Of a stretch of 28,195 nt of DNA, positions 22,258-28,195 are shown in pieces; position 1 is the first letter of the stretch, and each line of letters opens with the position of its first letter. The translations under genes were made by a program, and so were the position numbers. The DNA comes from a virus. The stretch is taken from positions 1 to 28,195 of IMG/VR virus record IMGVR_UViG_3300025168_000484. One strand, given 5' to 3'. Under the pieces are notes generated by a model. The model searched no databases. It was given only the letters and a program-made list of their open reading frames with translations, and was not told where the DNA came from.

Positions 22258-22392
22258 AAGTATTCATTAGCAGAATTAGAAAATATGATACCATGGGAAA
22301 GAGAGATTTACGTAACTATGTTAGTTAACTATATAAAAGAAGAGAATCAGAGAATAAAAATGCAACAACAGAATAAAAAACATGCTACCTAA
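22189..22392 (+). CDS. -1 frame extension of gp26 (GT-like chaperone domain, gene 51 position)
   Basis: The -1 frame is open from 22183 to the TAA at 22390-22392. It encodes, after the shift, a segment beginning SITLSHDDLINYYQTNFSLM and continuing with HHKYSLAELENMIPWEREIY and a charged helix ending KMQQQNKKHAT. It looks like a real conserved protein (helical, 'YSL.ELE.M.PWER.IY'), yet the first in-frame ATG (22246) lies inside that block and no ATG exists upstream. Entry by frameshift from gp26 (227 + 67 residues) explains this best; an ATA (22192) or ATT start is the alternative. Position between gp26 and the tape-measure gene equals T4 gene 51 (order 26-51) and matches the T domain of lambda GT. 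T4 gp51 is longer (249 aa), and homology is not shown. Confidence 0.75.
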   Translation, partial: SITLSHDDLINYYQTNFSLMNHHKYSLAELENMIPWEREIYVTMLVNYIKEENQRIKMQQQNKKHAT

Positions 22393-24631
22393 TTTACCAT
22401 CTTACGCACAACCTACGGCTGTGCAACCCATGAATCCATCAATATCAGCTCAAAACATAGCTTCATCTATGGGAAGAAGACAACTTGTGGCTTCTAAGTC
22501 ACAACCTTTTGACCAAAAGTCACAACCTTTTGGCCAAGAAATGAAAAAAACTACAGTTTTATCACAGAAATCAGTTGATTTAAGTAAAACTGGTGTCAAC
22601 TTACAAAAGCAAATGTTGAATGAATTAAAGGAATTAAAGTCTTTAAATAAAAAAATGATGATGAGTGCAGCTAAATCAGCTACACAATTCAATAATCAAA
22701 AAGGTAGATCATTATTTGATAAAGCTCAAACATTTGCTAAAACAAGAAAAGAAGAATCCAAACAAGGTGGTGCTAGCTTAAAAGAAAAATTAGGAGGTTT
22801 TGCTCGTAAAAAAGGTCGCCAGTTATTTGAAAAAGGTAAAGAGGGTGCTAAAGAGCTTGGAGCTTCTTTAGGTAAAGCAGGTTTAGGCATTGCTGGCGGT
22901 TTAGGAGCTGTTGCAGGAGCTCCTTCTTTATTAAGAGGCATGGTTGATGATGAATTTTTTGGTAAGGATCCAAATGCTGAAGCTAAAGCTGCTGCTATAT
23001 CTCAAGGTAAAACTACTTCATTTGTTGAAGATCAAGGTTCACCACAAGGTTCACAACAATCAGGTATTTTTCAAACTTTAAAAAATATTGATAAAAATTT
23101 AAAGCAAAATTTTTTATTACAGAATCCATTTGAAAAATTACGAACCATTTTAATGACAGGCACTAACGTCGTTGAAGAAGGATTTAATAAACTCGAAGAA
23201 GGCTATGATTCAGTAAAAGATAAGATAAAAGAAGTTGGTGCTCCTATTGCTAAAAATCTTAAAGATCAGGTTTTATCTGGTGCAGAAAGCGCTGGTAATT
23301 TAATTGATACTGCTAAACAAAAAGGTGGAGAACTTTTCAGATCATTAAAAGAACAAGTTGCTGGCAGTTTACTAACACCTGGGGGAAGACAAAAAGCAAT
23401 GTCTCAAGATAAAACTGAAGGTAGAGATATAAGACAAAAATCTCAAAATGGTGCTATATCGGGAGCACCTAGAGCTACTCGTGTTTTAAATCCAGAAGAA
23501 AGAGACACAATGCTCCAAAAAGAAATAGATGCTTCTAGATCAGATGAAATGCTTTATGGGGGACTAGCTGAACGTCATGCAGATGGAAGAAAACGTGAAG
23601 ATATACCCGAAGGCGAAAGAGATCAATATGATGATGCAGTTAGAGCACAAGAAAATGCTAAAAAACGTATGTCACAATATCAAAAATTACAAACTGCAGT
23701 AAAAGATAAAGGACCTATGCCAGAATTTAGAGAAGGTGGGTTTAAGTATAAATTAGAAGATAAATTTGGATTTGATGATGGTAAAGGTTTCAGTTTGAAA
23801 CAGAACAAAGGCATTTTGTTTGAAGATGGAATTCCGGGCATAACTGAAGCAGGAATGAAAGAAGATAAATCTATGATAAAAACAACATTTGGCGATGGCA
23901 CGTCAGATGAAGGAGGTAAAGTTAAATCGGGTTATCGTATACCAGAAATGGATCTACAAACTGGTCTTCAACCAGAGTTTCAACGCAAGGGTGGTAGAAA
24001 AGCAGAAGAAACTACTGGAGAAAAATTTAAAAATTTTGTATCTAATTTATTTGGTTCTAGTGAGTCAAAAAAAGTATCTGACACATCTCCAGGAAGTAGT
24101 AGAAGAGAAATTATAAGTGAAAGAAAAAAAGAGTTCCGGAAAAAATATGGAAATCTTCCTGATGGAAAACACACTTTTAAAGAAGGTAAACTCGTTTCAA
24201 GTGACAGTAGTAAAGGAAATATATTTAGAGACGGTATTAAATCAATGTTAGAAAAACCTGATGTAGCCACATCTGATACAGAATACAGAAAAAATGAATT
24301 AGACGAATCTCCAGGAAGTAGTAGAAGAGAAATTATAAGTGAAAGAAAAAAAGAGTTCCGGAAAAAATATGGAAATCTTCCTGATGGAAAACACACTTTT
24401 AAAGAAGGTAAACTCGTACGTCAACAAGAAAAACGTAATAGTTTGCTTTCAGATACTGTAGAAAATGAAATATTAAAAGAAAATAAACAACAAGGGCAAA
24501 GTGCCCCCGTTGTTGTAAATAATGTAAGTAAATCAGAAAAAACTACATTTACTCCTTTGGCTACAGATCCAAGACCTAGAAATAATTCTTTCGAAAGAAA
24601 AATTGATTCTGTTTTTTCTTCAGATTTTTAG
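22382..24631 (+). CDS. Probable tape-measure / tail length protein, 749 aa
   Basis: A long, charged, mostly helical protein rich in Lys, Glu, Gln and Ser. A heptad-like helix covers about 60-100 (LQKQMLNELKELKSLNKKMM). A Gly/Ala-rich hydrophobic patch follows (about 159-183, LGASLGKAGLGIAGGLGAVA). A Lys/Glu helical stretch covers about 245-330. From about 555 there is a low-complexity part with an exact 37-residue duplication. Directly after a gp26/-1-frame chaperone pair is where tape-measure genes lie in lambda-like phages; T4 gp29 (590 aa) follows nearby. At roughly 1.5 angstrom per residue, 749 residues would give a tail near 110 nm. The ATG overlaps the frameshift ORF by 11 bases without a clear SD, so translation is probably coupled. 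No sequence match to gp29 is claimed. Confidence 0.65.
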   Translation: MLPNLPSYAQPTAVQPMNPSISAQNIASSMGRRQLVASKSQPFDQKSQPFGQEMKKTTVLSQKSVDLSKTGVNLQKQMLNELKELKSLNKKMMMSAAKSATQFNNQKGRSLFDKAQTFAKTRKEESKQGGASLKEKLGGFARKKGRQLFEKGKEGAKELGASLGKAGLGIAGGLGAVAGAPSLLRGMVDDEFFGKDPNAEAKAAAISQGKTTSFVEDQGSPQGSQQSGIFQTLKNIDKNLKQNFLLQNPFEKLRTILMTGTNVVEEGFNKLEEGYDSVKDKIKEVGAPIAKNLKDQVLSGAESAGNLIDTAKQKGGELFRSLKEQVAGSLLTPGGRQKAMSQDKTEGRDIRQKSQNGAISGAPRATRVLNPEERDTMLQKEIDASRSDEMLYGGLAERHADGRKREDIPEGERDQYDDAVRAQENAKKRMSQYQKLQTAVKDKGPMPEFREGGFKYKLEDKFGFDDGKGFSLKQNKGILFEDGIPGITEAGMKEDKSMIKTTFGDGTSDEGGKVKSGYRIPEMDLQTGLQPEFQRKGGRKAEETTGEKFKNFVSNLFGSSESKKVSDTSPGSSRREIISERKKEFRKKYGNLPDGKHTFKEGKLVSSDSSKGNIFRDGIKSMLEKPDVATSDTEYRKNELDESPGSSRREIISERKKEFRKKYGNLPDGKHTFKEGKLVRQQEKRNSLLSDTVENEILKENKQQGQSAPVVVNNVSKSEKTTFTPLATDPRPRNNSFERKIDSVFSSDF
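22496..22537 (+). repeat. 21-base tandem repeat in the tape-measure-like gene
   Basis: Two adjacent 21-base units (22496-22516 and 22517-22537) differ at one base and encode KSQPFDQ then KSQPFGQ. They are in frame, so unit gain or loss changes length by 7 residues only. Confidence 0.85.
24085..24195 (+). repeat. 111-base perfect direct repeat, copy 1
   Basis: Identical to 24307-24417 over all 111 bases (37 codons). The copies start 222 bases apart (74 codons), so the duplication keeps the reading frame. It encodes a peptide that starts SPGSSRREIISERKKEFRKK and ends KHTFKEGKLV. Identity at silent positions means the duplication is recent or kept identical by recombination. Confidence 0.95.
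24307..24417 (+). repeat. 111-base perfect direct repeat, copy 2
   Basis: Second exact copy of the 24085-24195 unit, in the same frame of the tape-measure-like gene. The 111 bases between the copies are equal in length to the repeat but not similar to it in sequence. Together with copy 1 and this spacer it forms a 333-base block. Confidence 0.95.
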
Positions 24632-25812: not shown

Positions 25813-26383
25813 ACTTTTCTTTTTCTATTTTTAAAAATGGTTGATACTTCTTAATTATTCTTGAAACATCAGGCCATACTAAATCAGTTTTTAATTTTTC
25901 ATCTAATCTATCAGTATAGTTATTTATGTTATTTAAAATAACTAGGGTTTCTATTGATATATGTTTACCTAGATACATACGTAATATTATAGGATGGTTT
26001 GTGTCAGAATAAAACACATTATCAAATTTAAAATTATTTTTTTCACAGTTAAATATTATCTTATCTATGTCATTCTTAAATGTATATGACATAGCTTCCA
26101 TTCTTCTTTTCCAGTCAAAATAGTTATGTTTTGCTTCTGTATCAAACACACCACCCCATCTATCTCCAGAAACAAAATTAGCTACTAAAAAATCTATAAC
26201 TTCTTTTTCATTGTACTTATCAGCTATTTTTCTTATGTTTAGTAAATCATTTCTTTTAAAGAATGATTGTTTTGTTGCTCTCACTCTACCTCTTTGTTTT
26301 ATAGCATCATACTTATCTGTCGTGAAATGTAATTTCAGTGCTAAGTAAGATCTATAAACGTCAAATGCTTCCATACATATCAT
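25775..26383 (-). CDS. gp59: DNA helicase loader gp59
   Basis: 202 residues (T4 gp59 has 217). The N-terminus matches the family: 'AFDVYRSYLALKLHFTTDKYDAIKQRGRVRATKQSFFKRND' (about 6-46). It is followed by 'FLVANFVSGDRWGGVFDTEAKHNYFDWKRRMEAMSYTFKND', parallel to T4 'FISNLVANQDAWIGDISDADALVFYREYIGRLKQIKFKFEED'. The all-helical, basic character fits. gp59 loads the gp41 helicase onto gp32-covered forks. The gene overlaps gp33 by 4 bases (ATGA), reproducing the T4 order 33-59-32. Confidence 0.9.
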   Translation of the reverse strand: MICMEAFDVYRSYLALKLHFTTDKYDAIKQRGRVRATKQSFFKRNDLLNIRKIADKYNEKEVIDFLVANFVSGDRWGGVFDTEAKHNYFDWKRRMEAMSYTFKNDIDKIIFNCEKNNFKFDNVFYSDTNHPIILRMYLGKHISIETLVILNNINNYTDRLDEKLKTDLVWPDVSRIIKKYQPFLKIEKEKYVRILRERLRSN

Positions 26384-26631
26384 ACCGGTAATTTTCCTTT
26401 GGGTCTCATCATGTTTGATTCTTCTGCTTCAAGTTGTATTTTCTCTTTTAATGAAGGAGTAACTAAGTTTCCTATATTTTCAATATCAACACTATTATGA
26501 TAACAATAATCTATAATAGCATCCATGTAACCAAGTCTTTCCTTAGAAACTCTTTCTTCAATGTAAAGTGAAAATTCTGTAGGCGACCTAAATCTTTTTG
26601 TTATCAATATACTATCATTAAATTCAGTCAT
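26380..26631 (-). CDS. gp33: Late-transcription coactivator gp33
   Basis: 83 residues (T4 gp33 has 112). The second half aligns with T4: 'YMDAIIDYCYHNSVDIENIGNLVTPSLKEKIQLEAEESNMMRP' (about 35-77) parallels T4 'YLEATTAFLEENSIPETQFAKFIPSGIIEKIQSEAIDENLLRP'. The T4 hydrophobic C-terminal clamp-binding tail (LDFLL) is not evident; the protein ends KGKLPV. gp33 links RNA polymerase with the gp55 sigma factor to the sliding clamp for late transcription. Its ATG directly follows the stop of the upstream 32-aa ORF (TAAATG). The order 33-59-32 supports the call. Confidence 0.85.
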   Translation of the reverse strand: MTEFNDSILITKRFRSPTEFSLYIEERVSKERLGYMDAIIDYCYHNSVDIENIGNLVTPSLKEKIQLEAEESNMMRPKGKLPV

Positions 26632-26873: not shown

Positions 26874-27039
26874 TCCAGGTCTTTGGGTAATAAGGAAAAC
26901 CTGGAAACCCCACCTAGCTTTAAGCCGCTAGGGCAAAGACATCGTCGTTTGCGTTTACTTCGGTTGCTCGATTTACGGTCGTCGCCTACCGGATCGTCCA
27001 TCTTTCTATTCATTGCCCCGTCGAAACCAGGACACCCCC
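26874..27039 (-). ncRNA. ssrA: tmRNA coding piece (permuted two-piece ssrA)
   Basis: On the minus strand the RNA starts GGGGGTGTCCTGGTTTCGAC and continues GGGG, the near-universal tmRNA 5' end: acceptor strand plus degenerate D-arm with 'CUGGUUUCGACGGGG'. A resume codon GCA (26952-26950) opens a tag ORF. The stop codon lies in the loop of a hairpin (CCTAGC 26932-26927 with GCTAGG 26918-26913), as in tmRNA helix 5. Downstream, GTCTTTG (26940-26934) can pair with CAAAGAC (26885-26879), and TCCAGGT (26905-26899) with ACCTGGA (26880-26874), in pseudoknot order. No tRNA-like 3' half follows; it lies upstream at 27495-27565. Thus the gene is circularly permuted. The 3' end is approximate. It is clearly more GC-rich than its surroundings. 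Confidence 0.92.
26920..26952 (-). other. tmRNA proteolysis-tag reading frame
   Basis: Ten codons from GCA encode ANDDVFALAA, then TAA. With the tRNA-borne alanine the tag is AANDDVFALAA. The 'AND' start and 'ALAA' end match proteobacterial tags recognised by ClpXP/SspB-type machinery. The bases before GCA (GTAAAC) keep an A at -4, as in E. coli. Confidence 0.9.
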
Positions 27040-27041
27040 AT

Positions 27042-27482
27042 TTATCTTATATAATTAGGATTTAATACATCTTCGAGTATAACTACATGTTCTCTATTCT
27101 TCAAATGTTGTTCTTTTATATCGTCTTTAGATTGACCGTGATAATCTACCGCATGATGATTCTTTATCATCATTTCATCAAGCCTTTGATTATCATAATC
27201 GGGCAATACAAATACACCTAAGATTCTACCGTATTTTCCAACACCATCTTTCATGGTTCTAAGTGTTTGAGTAGAATCCAAAGGCATAGTATCTTTCACA
27301 AACTTTTTCGAAGCAAGACCATATTTTTTTTCTTCTTTATCACTTGTTCTGGATTCAGGAGCATCTATACCATAAAGACGCACTCTTTCATTTCTCATCC
27401 ATACTCCAAAACCAAGGTCAATATCAACATCAACTGTATCACCATCAACTACTTTTACTATTTTACAATTATACTCGTACAT
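27042..27482 (-). CDS. Thermonuclease (SNase family), encoded inside the tmRNA intervening segment
   Basis: 146 residues of a compact SNase domain with no signal peptide, so cytoplasmic. Motifs are KIVKVVDGDTVDVDIDLGFG (7-26), RVRLYGIDAPE (33-43) and VGKYGRILG (81-89). R35, D40, E43 and R86 correspond to the catalytic Arg, Asp, Glu and Arg of staphylococcal nuclease. Similar small nucleases occur in T4-like marine phages, probably for host DNA breakdown. The SD AGGAAAG (27491-27485) lies directly after the CCA of the tmRNA acceptor piece, and the start codon is 12 bases from that CCA. The TAA ends 2 bases before G1 of the tmRNA coding piece. It should therefore be co-transcribed with and released by tmRNA processing. 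Confidence 0.93.
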   Translation of the reverse strand: MYEYNCKIVKVVDGDTVDVDIDLGFGVWMRNERVRLYGIDAPESRTSDKEEKKYGLASKKFVKDTMPLDSTQTLRTMKDGVGKYGRILGVFVLPDYDNQRLDEMMIKNHHAVDYHGQSKDDIKEQHLKNREHVVILEDVLNPNYIR

Positions 27483-27494
27483 AACTTTCCTAAT

Positions 27495-27565
27495 TGGTGG
27501 AGGTGAGGGGAATCGAACCCCTGTCCGAAACAGCTTTCAATCGACTTCATACGATCATATTTTAT
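27495..27565 (-). ncRNA. ssrA: tmRNA acceptor piece (permuted two-piece ssrA)
   Basis: On the minus strand, TTTCGGACAGGGGTTCGATT CCCCT is followed by CACCTCC, A and encoded CCA (27497-27495). The T-arm is AGGGG-TTCGATT-CCCCT (27522-27506). The 3' acceptor strand CACCTCC pairs over all 7 bp with GGGGGTG of the coding piece (27039-27033), including a G3:U70 wobble, the alanine identity signal. Upstream, GATCGT (27556-27551) can pair with ACGATC (26997-26992) and ATTG with CAAT of the coding piece, as expected for helix 2. No D- or anticodon arm precedes it, so it is not a normal tRNA. The 5' end is approximate. Confidence 0.92.
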
Positions 27566-27587
27566 ATTATCTCATATTTAAAAATAA

Positions 27588-28195
27588 TTAACAACCGTGA
27601 CTTTCTCGATATTGTTCACGTAAATCTATAAATTCATCAATATAATGATCACGTTTTTCTTCAAATATTACACAACCTTCGTGAGCTACAGCCATAATTA
27701 TTAAAAGATTAGACACTGGAACTTTTGTTCTTTCTTCAAATGCAACAGCATAAGCAGCAGTTTGCATAAAGTAATTTTTTATTTGATTTTTTGTTTTTAG
27801 TTTAGATGAAGTTTTAAAATCAATAATACATAATTTACCTTTATACTCACCCACACAATCGACTGTTCCAGCAACTTCTAAATGGTCAGAATATAGCTTA
27901 CTTTCTAAACCATGTATATTATCTATGCAATCCAACTCTGGCTTGATTGAATGCCACATTTCAAGGTCAAAGTCTTTCTTACGGAATTCTTTGTTCGATA
28001 AGTAGTCTTCACATAAGTGATGCACTCTTGTTCCTTGCTTTGAGGCTTTAGCTGTGATTGCAGCTGCCTTTTCTTTACCAATCCTTTCTCGCCATGCTTG
28101 TATTGCTTTTTTGGCAAGTTGACCGGTAATCGAAGTGACGGATGGATAGGCTTTACCTGACGGAGTCCTGTATAACCTTGCACCATTATCGTTAA
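27588..28195 (-). CDS. PD-(D/E)XK exonuclease, RecB/Cas4-like (5' end beyond window)
   Basis: The frame is open to the right edge of the window (201 residues visible), so the start lies outside. A GTG at 28025 is only an internal Val in the conserved KQGTRVHHLCEDYL segment. Visible order: YPSVTSITGQLAKKAIQAWR; GTRVHHLCEDYL (RecB-like motif with His); LEVAGTVDCVGEYKGKLCII (metal-binding Asp) running into IDFKTS (D-x-K); and QTAAYAVAFEE, the Q-x3-Y motif of RecB/Cas4-type nucleases. It ends REQYRESHGC. Such nucleases in T4-like phages are thought to act in recombination or host DNA degradation. It leads the tmRNA-SNase-33-59-32 cluster, ending about 20 bases before the acceptor piece. Confidence 0.88.
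   Translation of the reverse strand, partial: NDNGARLYRTPSGKAYPSVTSITGQLAKKAIQAWRERIGKEKAAAITAKASKQGTRVHHLCEDYLSNKEFRKKDFDLEMWHSIKPELDCIDNIHGLESKLYSDHLEVAGTVDCVGEYKGKLCIIDFKTSSKLKTKNQIKNYFMQTAAYAVAFEERTKVPVSNLLIIMAVAHEGCVIFEEKRDHYIDEFIDLREQYRESHGC

Follow-up and report, generated by a model that had tools for sequence, protein, structure and literature searches.

tmRNA is the RNA that rescues stuck ribosomes. In characterised permuted tmRNAs, the intervening segment (IVS) is short and non-coding, which is usual but not defining, and it is treated as a spacer. Can this segment instead be a protein gene? The question is raised by the minus strand of the window (the whole stretch of viral DNA analysed, 28,195 nucleotides), where an earlier note had placed, in this order, a tmRNA 3' end, a complete 146-codon SNase (staphylococcal nuclease homologue) ORF, and a tmRNA 5' end with its tag. 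Every element is found at its place (Table 1), and the analysis supports reading the locus as a phage-borne permuted two-piece tmRNA whose IVS is a complete SNase gene.

Identity and pairing of the two tmRNA pieces

Positions 27556-26920 of the minus strand form a full-length match to the permuted tmRNA model of Rfam (tmRNA_permuted, RF04321; cmscan, model positions 1-213), with 113.2 bits against a cut-off of 47 and an E-value of 1.2e-21. The best of the older clade-specific models, RF01850 (beta_tmRNA), matches over the 5' piece plus some of the IVS, reaching 62.8 bits against a cut-off of 84. The 3' piece precedes the 5' piece, and the 7-bp acceptor stem with its G3:U70 pair and the CCA are present, as defines a permuted tmRNA. 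Both the perfect acceptor stem and the GATCGT/ACGATC helix-2 pairing claimed by the earlier note are found. The T-loop is intact, and no intron family matches at the window tmRNA. The earlier note had also warned that tmRNA finders built for a short IVS could miss such a locus; ARAGORN reports no tmRNA in the window, and calls one (tmRNA*, tag ANDDVFALAA) once the IVS is cut to 20-225 nt. The length of the IVS alone therefore hides the locus from this program.

Table 1. Features of the permuted tmRNA locus and of its neighbours, in window coordinates.
Feature	Position	Strand	Basis or remark
PD-(D/E)XK exonuclease gene, upstream neighbour, 5' end beyond the window	27588..28195	-	PF12705 1.5e-8, phrog_298 3.8e-68
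Putative sigma70-type promoter TTGTTA-17-GATAAT, just 5' of the 3' piece	27566..27594	-	9/12 consensus matches
tmRNA 3' (acceptor) piece: helix-2 strands, T-arm, CACCTCC, A, CCA	27495..27556	-	RF04321, covariation
Helix-2 strand GATCGT	27556-27551	-	pairs with 26997-26992
T-arm	27522-27506	-	
CACCTCC, acceptor-stem 3' strand	27505-27499	-	
Discriminator A	27498	-	
CCA	27497-27495	-	
IVS, 455 nt, predicted absent from the mature tmRNA	27040..27494	-	RF04321 match
Shine-Dalgarno AGGA of the SNase gene, beginning 3 nt past CCA	27488..27491	-	
SNase gene, 146 codons	27042..27482	-	PF00565 2e-12, phrog_452 3.2e-35, PDB alignment
tmRNA 5' (coding) piece, from G1 to the last covarying hairpin (3' limit approximate)	26874..27039	-	RF04321, alignment, compensatory hairpin
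Acceptor-stem 5' strand GGGGGTG	27033..27039	-	pairs with 27505-27499, G3:U70
Helix-2 strand ACGATC, partner GATCGT	26992..26997	-	ACGATT/AATCGT in L218
Tag reading frame ANDDVFALAA-stop	26920..26952	-	
3'-terminal hairpin TCCAGGTTTT/AAGACCTGGA	26874..26905	-	TGACGATTGA/TCAATCGTCA in L218, same loop conserved
gp33 late-transcription coactivator gene, downstream	26380..26631	-	PF16805 5e-21, phrog_254; also neighbours the Melnitz tmRNA

The whole layout recurs in six other IMG/VR contigs (L178, L179, L180, L181, L188, and L218) from five source metagenomes: 3300001589 (two contigs), 3300025120, 3300025137, 3300030108, and 3300029448. Full-length RF04321 matches score 113 bits in the window, 114 in L180, 95 in L188, and 72 in L218. 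Evidence for the pairing of the two pieces rests on covariation, since cofolding of single piece pairs gives real pieces no advantage over shuffled ones. The covariation predicted for relatives is borne out for helix 2, which shows compensatory changes. Helix 2a, joining the two pieces, is 7/7 paired in the window and in L218 despite C-G/A-U type exchanges (the outer pair GATCGT/ACGATC becomes AATCGT/ACGATT), and its covariation extends over 45 distinct viral permuted tmRNAs. The acceptor stem is nearly invariant among copies, hence does not itself covary, and is uninformative. The terminal hairpin is swapped in L218 with its pairing kept. Tags among the copies read ANDDVFALAA, ANDEVFALAA, ANDDYFALAA, and ANDEEYLLAA, retaining the pattern ANDxxxxLAA and a degron-like (L)AA end. 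As a matter of sequence, the observation of a permuted tmRNA with a protein-coding IVS is confirmed as real.

The SNase gene, its surroundings and its alleles

Coding sequence takes up 441 of the 455 nt of the IVS, the SNase start lying 12 nt past the CCA and its stop 2 nt short of the tmRNA 5' end. The catalytic residues D15, R35, D40, E43, and R86 are kept, aligning with D21, R35, D40, E43, and R87 in the PDB alignment. Between L178, identical to the window, and L188, a dN of 0.088 and a dS of 1.0 (dN/dS 0.09) indicate that the gene is under purifying selection. Relative to the window, the SNase is 87% identical in L188 and 59%, the lowest value, in L218; nucleotide identity is 82-100% in the close clade, and one divergent copy lies on a 144-kb contig. 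The Shine-Dalgarno sequence and the 12-nt spacing are identical in all complete copies. In the window, the end of the ORF holds TCCTAATT (27060-27053), a complement to AATTAGGA (27495-27488), which overlaps the CCA and the Shine-Dalgarno. This pairing would extend the acceptor stem and may hide the Shine-Dalgarno in the precursor. It is present in the window clade, but not retained in L218; TCCTAATT is missing from alleles that lack the 5' piece, and AATTAGGA from alleles that lack the 3' piece.

The window belongs to a T4-like phage, with gp33, gp59, and gp32 homologues downstream of the locus and the PD-(D/E)XK exonuclease gene upstream. Promoter-like matches number 11 against 7.4 expected and are weak when taken alone, the putative promoter being backed by its position and its conservation: TTGACG...TATAAT stands at the same place in L218, and the tmRNA-less alleles have none. 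Between the tmRNA and gp33 lies a tandem pair of hydrophobic 32-aa paralogues, MRDKICQIIHTMAISTIATSTTLIMLRTYGII and MYQKVCLTISAFSVTCVAINTSLIMLRTYGII (26857-26759 and 26730-26632, minus strand). Elsewhere in the window, a 749-aa protein (22382-24631, plus strand) carries a near-exact direct repeat, SPGSSRREIISERKKEFRKKYGNLPDGKHTFKEGKLV. An INPHARED nucleotide search with the window 5' piece returns no relative.

In six further contigs (L182, L183, L199, L184, L185, and L187), an SNase with 86-91% nucleotide identity to that of the window is found with neither tmRNA piece, and the order exonuclease - SNase - small ORF is kept. The SNase occupies this slot with or without the tmRNA, which is thus dispensable, as close relatives devoid of both pieces retain the nuclease. 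Two contigs from metagenome 3300030103 carry a single piece beside the SNase, the 5' piece in L186 (3443) and the 3' piece in L189 (20-58). The similarity of their SNase and flanks switches between tmRNA-plus and tmRNA-minus alleles, and they are recombinants or, alternatively, reciprocal chimeras of the assembly. The L189 SNase has an in-frame 57-nt gap.

The L218 SNase is itself a mosaic. Its first 60 nt are ~90% similar to the window clade and are joined to the 3' piece by the same 12-nt leader, and the remainder is up to 97% similar to the SNase genes of L318/L320, which sit elsewhere, without tmRNA. Its frame enters the 5' piece and stops 27 nt inside. Independent capture of the SNase in L218 and in the window clade was considered, as the SNase tree separates them; it was rejected because the first 60 nt of L218 and its Shine-Dalgarno/CCA junction match the window clade and the rest of the gene matches L318/L320. 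Within-gene recombination appears the better reading. Given this mosaic and the switching in the half alleles, the SNase appears to serve as a surface for recombination.

Open frames in other intervening segments

Other IVS were searched for a Shine-Dalgarno and ATG directly after the CCA, and then for a stop immediately preceding G1. There are 82 clusters of viral IVS with a length of 50 nt or more, 12 of them at least 120 nt long. Nine of these 12 distinct IVS hold a frame with a Shine-Dalgarno and a start 10-13 nt after the CCA, ending at -1 or -2 of G1 or within the 5' piece. Shuffled controls (interior only, 300 shuffles) give a mean of 0.22 coding IVS and a maximum of 2. The nine comprise three SNase clusters, L461 (64 aa), L488 (54 aa), L421 (52 aa), L382 and L111 (41 aa, membrane-like), and the read-in frame of L435. 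The non-SNase proteins (41-64 aa) are mutually unrelated, and their stop usually lies exactly 1 nt upstream of the tmRNA 5' end. Selection of the L407-L501 loci for T[AG]AT ahead of G1 biases how often a stop falls at -1, but leaves the open in-phase frame that follows a Shine-Dalgarno unaffected. Ten coding-IVS loci that were checked are Rfam permuted tmRNAs with 120-150 bits, and the other viral coding-IVS tmRNAs exceed the RF01850 cut-off with 94-162 bits. The 41-aa pair (L382, L111) displays a dN of 0.33 and a dS of 2.1 in the coding frame, a signal absent from the two remaining frames. L444/L039 (22 aa; dN 0.38, dS 1.6), L103/L114/L089 (26-27 aa), and L414 (23 aa) are smaller candidates; for the 80-119-nt IVS as a class, and the 50-119-nt IVS as a group, coding is not above chance. 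The L461 and L382 proteins have no significant relative in Pfam, PHROG or INPHARED, nor does the L488 5' piece in an INPHARED nucleotide search.

The SNase of the window is the largest member of this wider viral set with protein-coding IVS, which probably forms a class rather than a single oddity. With related layouts holding other small proteins across environmental viruses, the discarded tmRNA segment seems to serve as coding space.

Small ORFs filling the IVS, with a start just after the CCA and a stop 1 nt before the 5' end, are observed in L461, L488, L421, L382/L387, L111/L036/L046/L389, L414/L438, L444/L448/L039, L103/L114, and L089. Most are hydrophobic, and the Shine-Dalgarno is weak in L103/L114/L089. 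In L019 and L104/L054 (IVS of 140 and 170 nt), homologous frames (..VHG..DK.P..YYT.NEWSR....P.ERN..) continue in phase into both tmRNA pieces, with no obvious Shine-Dalgarno start. Several candidates of other kinds were discarded: L364 and L366, from a gap-pattern scan, are GC-rich chance matches with no T-arm, and L020 and L163, with an apparent IVS of 1.1-1.2 kb, are standard tmRNAs.

Among the bacterial samples examined, none has a protein-coding IVS. The permuted gene is above cut-off in 105 of 115 alphaproteobacterial genomes, and the longest RF04321 matches span 419 and 332 nt. Neither of these two has a frame with a Shine-Dalgarno start filling the IVS, and the longer one has repeated IVS sequence. 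A scan of 84,980 genomes for this acceptor with an IVS of 430-460 nt yields 12 matches, all standard tmRNAs or chance; among 399 genomes of one betaproteobacterial order, the CCA-SD-ATG pattern yields four matches, none with a T-arm and none a tmRNA. The bacterial permuted tmRNA L393 (alphaproteobacterial genome G084) has a long IVS with a repeated block, GTACTTTTATGTACGTGAGTATT...ACCGGACCGACCGTACAGATGAGC.

The earlier note knew of no protein gene between the two pieces of a permuted tmRNA, and no literature report of one was found. In the main text describing a 2025 tmRNA database with 11,946 permuted sequences (PMC11915505), a tRNA gene and a repeat are named as IVS contents and no protein gene is, which, for the main text of one paper, is not proof of absence. 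A phage-encoded two-piece permuted tmRNA, however, has already been reported in Melnitz (PMC9004378), so the novelty is limited to the protein gene in the IVS.

Proposed expression of the locus and comparison with known systems

The identity of the tmRNA, the pairing of its pieces, the tag, the selection on the SNase and the recurrence of the layout together make a working phage permuted two-piece tmRNA gene, its IVS filled by a nested, independently selected SNase gene, the best explanation of the sequence, and one considered quite probable. The syntenic slot shared with the Melnitz tmRNA and the presence of unrelated proteins at the same IVS position also count for it. The putative promoter would start a single precursor near the first base of the acceptor piece, from which ribosomes would translate the SNase via the Shine-Dalgarno following the CCA. 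RNase P would cleave at G1, 2 nt beyond the SNase stop, and 3' trimming would halt at the CCA, removing the SNase message. Held together by the acceptor stem and helix 2, the two tmRNA pieces would perform trans-translation with the host SmpB. One precursor would thereby supply an early protein and then, after processing, a ribosome-rescue RNA. The promoter, the order of processing, the expression of both products and their coupling to RNA processing are what we infer from this layout. Whether phage permuted tmRNA genes are a general coding pocket for unrelated proteins, with a precursor acting first as mRNA and then as rescue RNA, and processing (or trans-translation for read-in frames) setting the protein amount, is a tentative extension, on the doubtful side. 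It is conceivable that the two products are functionally linked, the nuclease making broken mRNAs and the tmRNA rescuing the ribosomes stalled there.

Phage genes are tightly packed, and genome compaction has roughly an even chance of accounting for the arrangement: the IVS would be a permissive slot into which a harmless gene moved, SNase and tmRNA expression being uncoupled. The SNase is indeed also found between gp16 and gp17 in P-SSM4, next to baseplate genes in Melnitz, and by itself in the slot seen here, and the IVS proteins are unrelated to one another. The recurrence of a strict layout with such unrelated proteins (Shine-Dalgarno just after the CCA, stop 1-2 nt before G1) argues against this, although compaction could also yield it. 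tmRNA maturation might, alternatively, act as a processing switch that limits the SNase by destroying the nested message. In L218, whose ORF continues into the 5' piece, RNase P cleavage would yield an SNase message that has lost its stop codon and would be tagged by the tmRNA, producing a feedback; similar read-in frames occur in L079, L435, and the isolate Melnitz. The complementarity of the Shine-Dalgarno and the ORF end in the window clade, both sequences being absent from tmRNA-less alleles, also favours a switch. This complementarity is lost in L218, however, and a recombination junction at G1 explains its read-in frame; a switch is judged unlikely.

The absence of one or both pieces in close relatives would suit a decayed tmRNA, whose pieces are remnants beside an SNase that alone is functional. 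This is very improbable, as the tag frame, helix 2, the T-arm and the terminal hairpin are kept through compensatory or synonymous changes out to L218. An assembly artefact fusing a tmRNA contig with an SNase contig is hardly credible: L186 and L189, from one metagenome, do resemble reciprocal chimeras, but the full layout stands in six more contigs from five metagenomes, including the divergent copy on the 144-kb contig.

If the nested-gene explanation holds and both products are made, the locus would be a compact natural case of an mRNA and a stable RNA from one precursor, with mutually exclusive fates, and the role of the phage tmRNA would become testable together with the carried proteins (the nuclease and the small membrane-like peptides). 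A segment taken for a spacer is here a conserved gene, and most long viral IVS examined hold open frames arranged in this way. The largest case escapes a tmRNA finder restricted to short IVS, and such genes are therefore probably under-annotated.

The window shares with the permuted tmRNAs of RF04321/RF01850 the order 3' piece - IVS - 5' piece, the G3:U70 acceptor, the T-arm, helix 2, and the tag frame. Its IVS, in contrast, is a 455-nt protein gene, against 2-237 nt in other viral copies and a whole RF04321 match of at most 419 nt in the 105 alphaproteobacterial genomes. The OM43 phage Melnitz is likewise a T4-like marine phage with a permuted tmRNA between a PD-(D/E)XK gene and gp33, but this tmRNA is, unlike that of the window, of the alpha type (RF01849), with a 142-nt IVS and a glutamine riboswitch, and its SNase lies elsewhere, near baseplate genes. 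The Melnitz IVS (MZ577096.1 46096-46218, within the annotated SsrA; L258) also has, in a similar layout, a 54-codon frame that is not annotated; it has a Shine-Dalgarno-like sequence, starts 19 nt after the CCA and continues for 42 nt within the 5' piece, with only four near-identical isolates for comparison.

Extra cargo in the IVS is likewise mentioned in the main text of PMC11915505, as permuted tmRNAs with a tRNA-Ala gene or a repeat. That cargo is an RNA gene or a repeat in cellular genome assemblies, whereas the window has a protein gene in a phage. The same text counts a homing endonuclease gene in 36 of 883 tmRNA group I introns, where, as in the window, a protein gene is nested inside a tmRNA gene. 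There, the carrier is a self-splicing intron in the T-loop and the protein a LAGLIDADG protein; in the window there is no intron, and the carrier is the IVS of the permutation.
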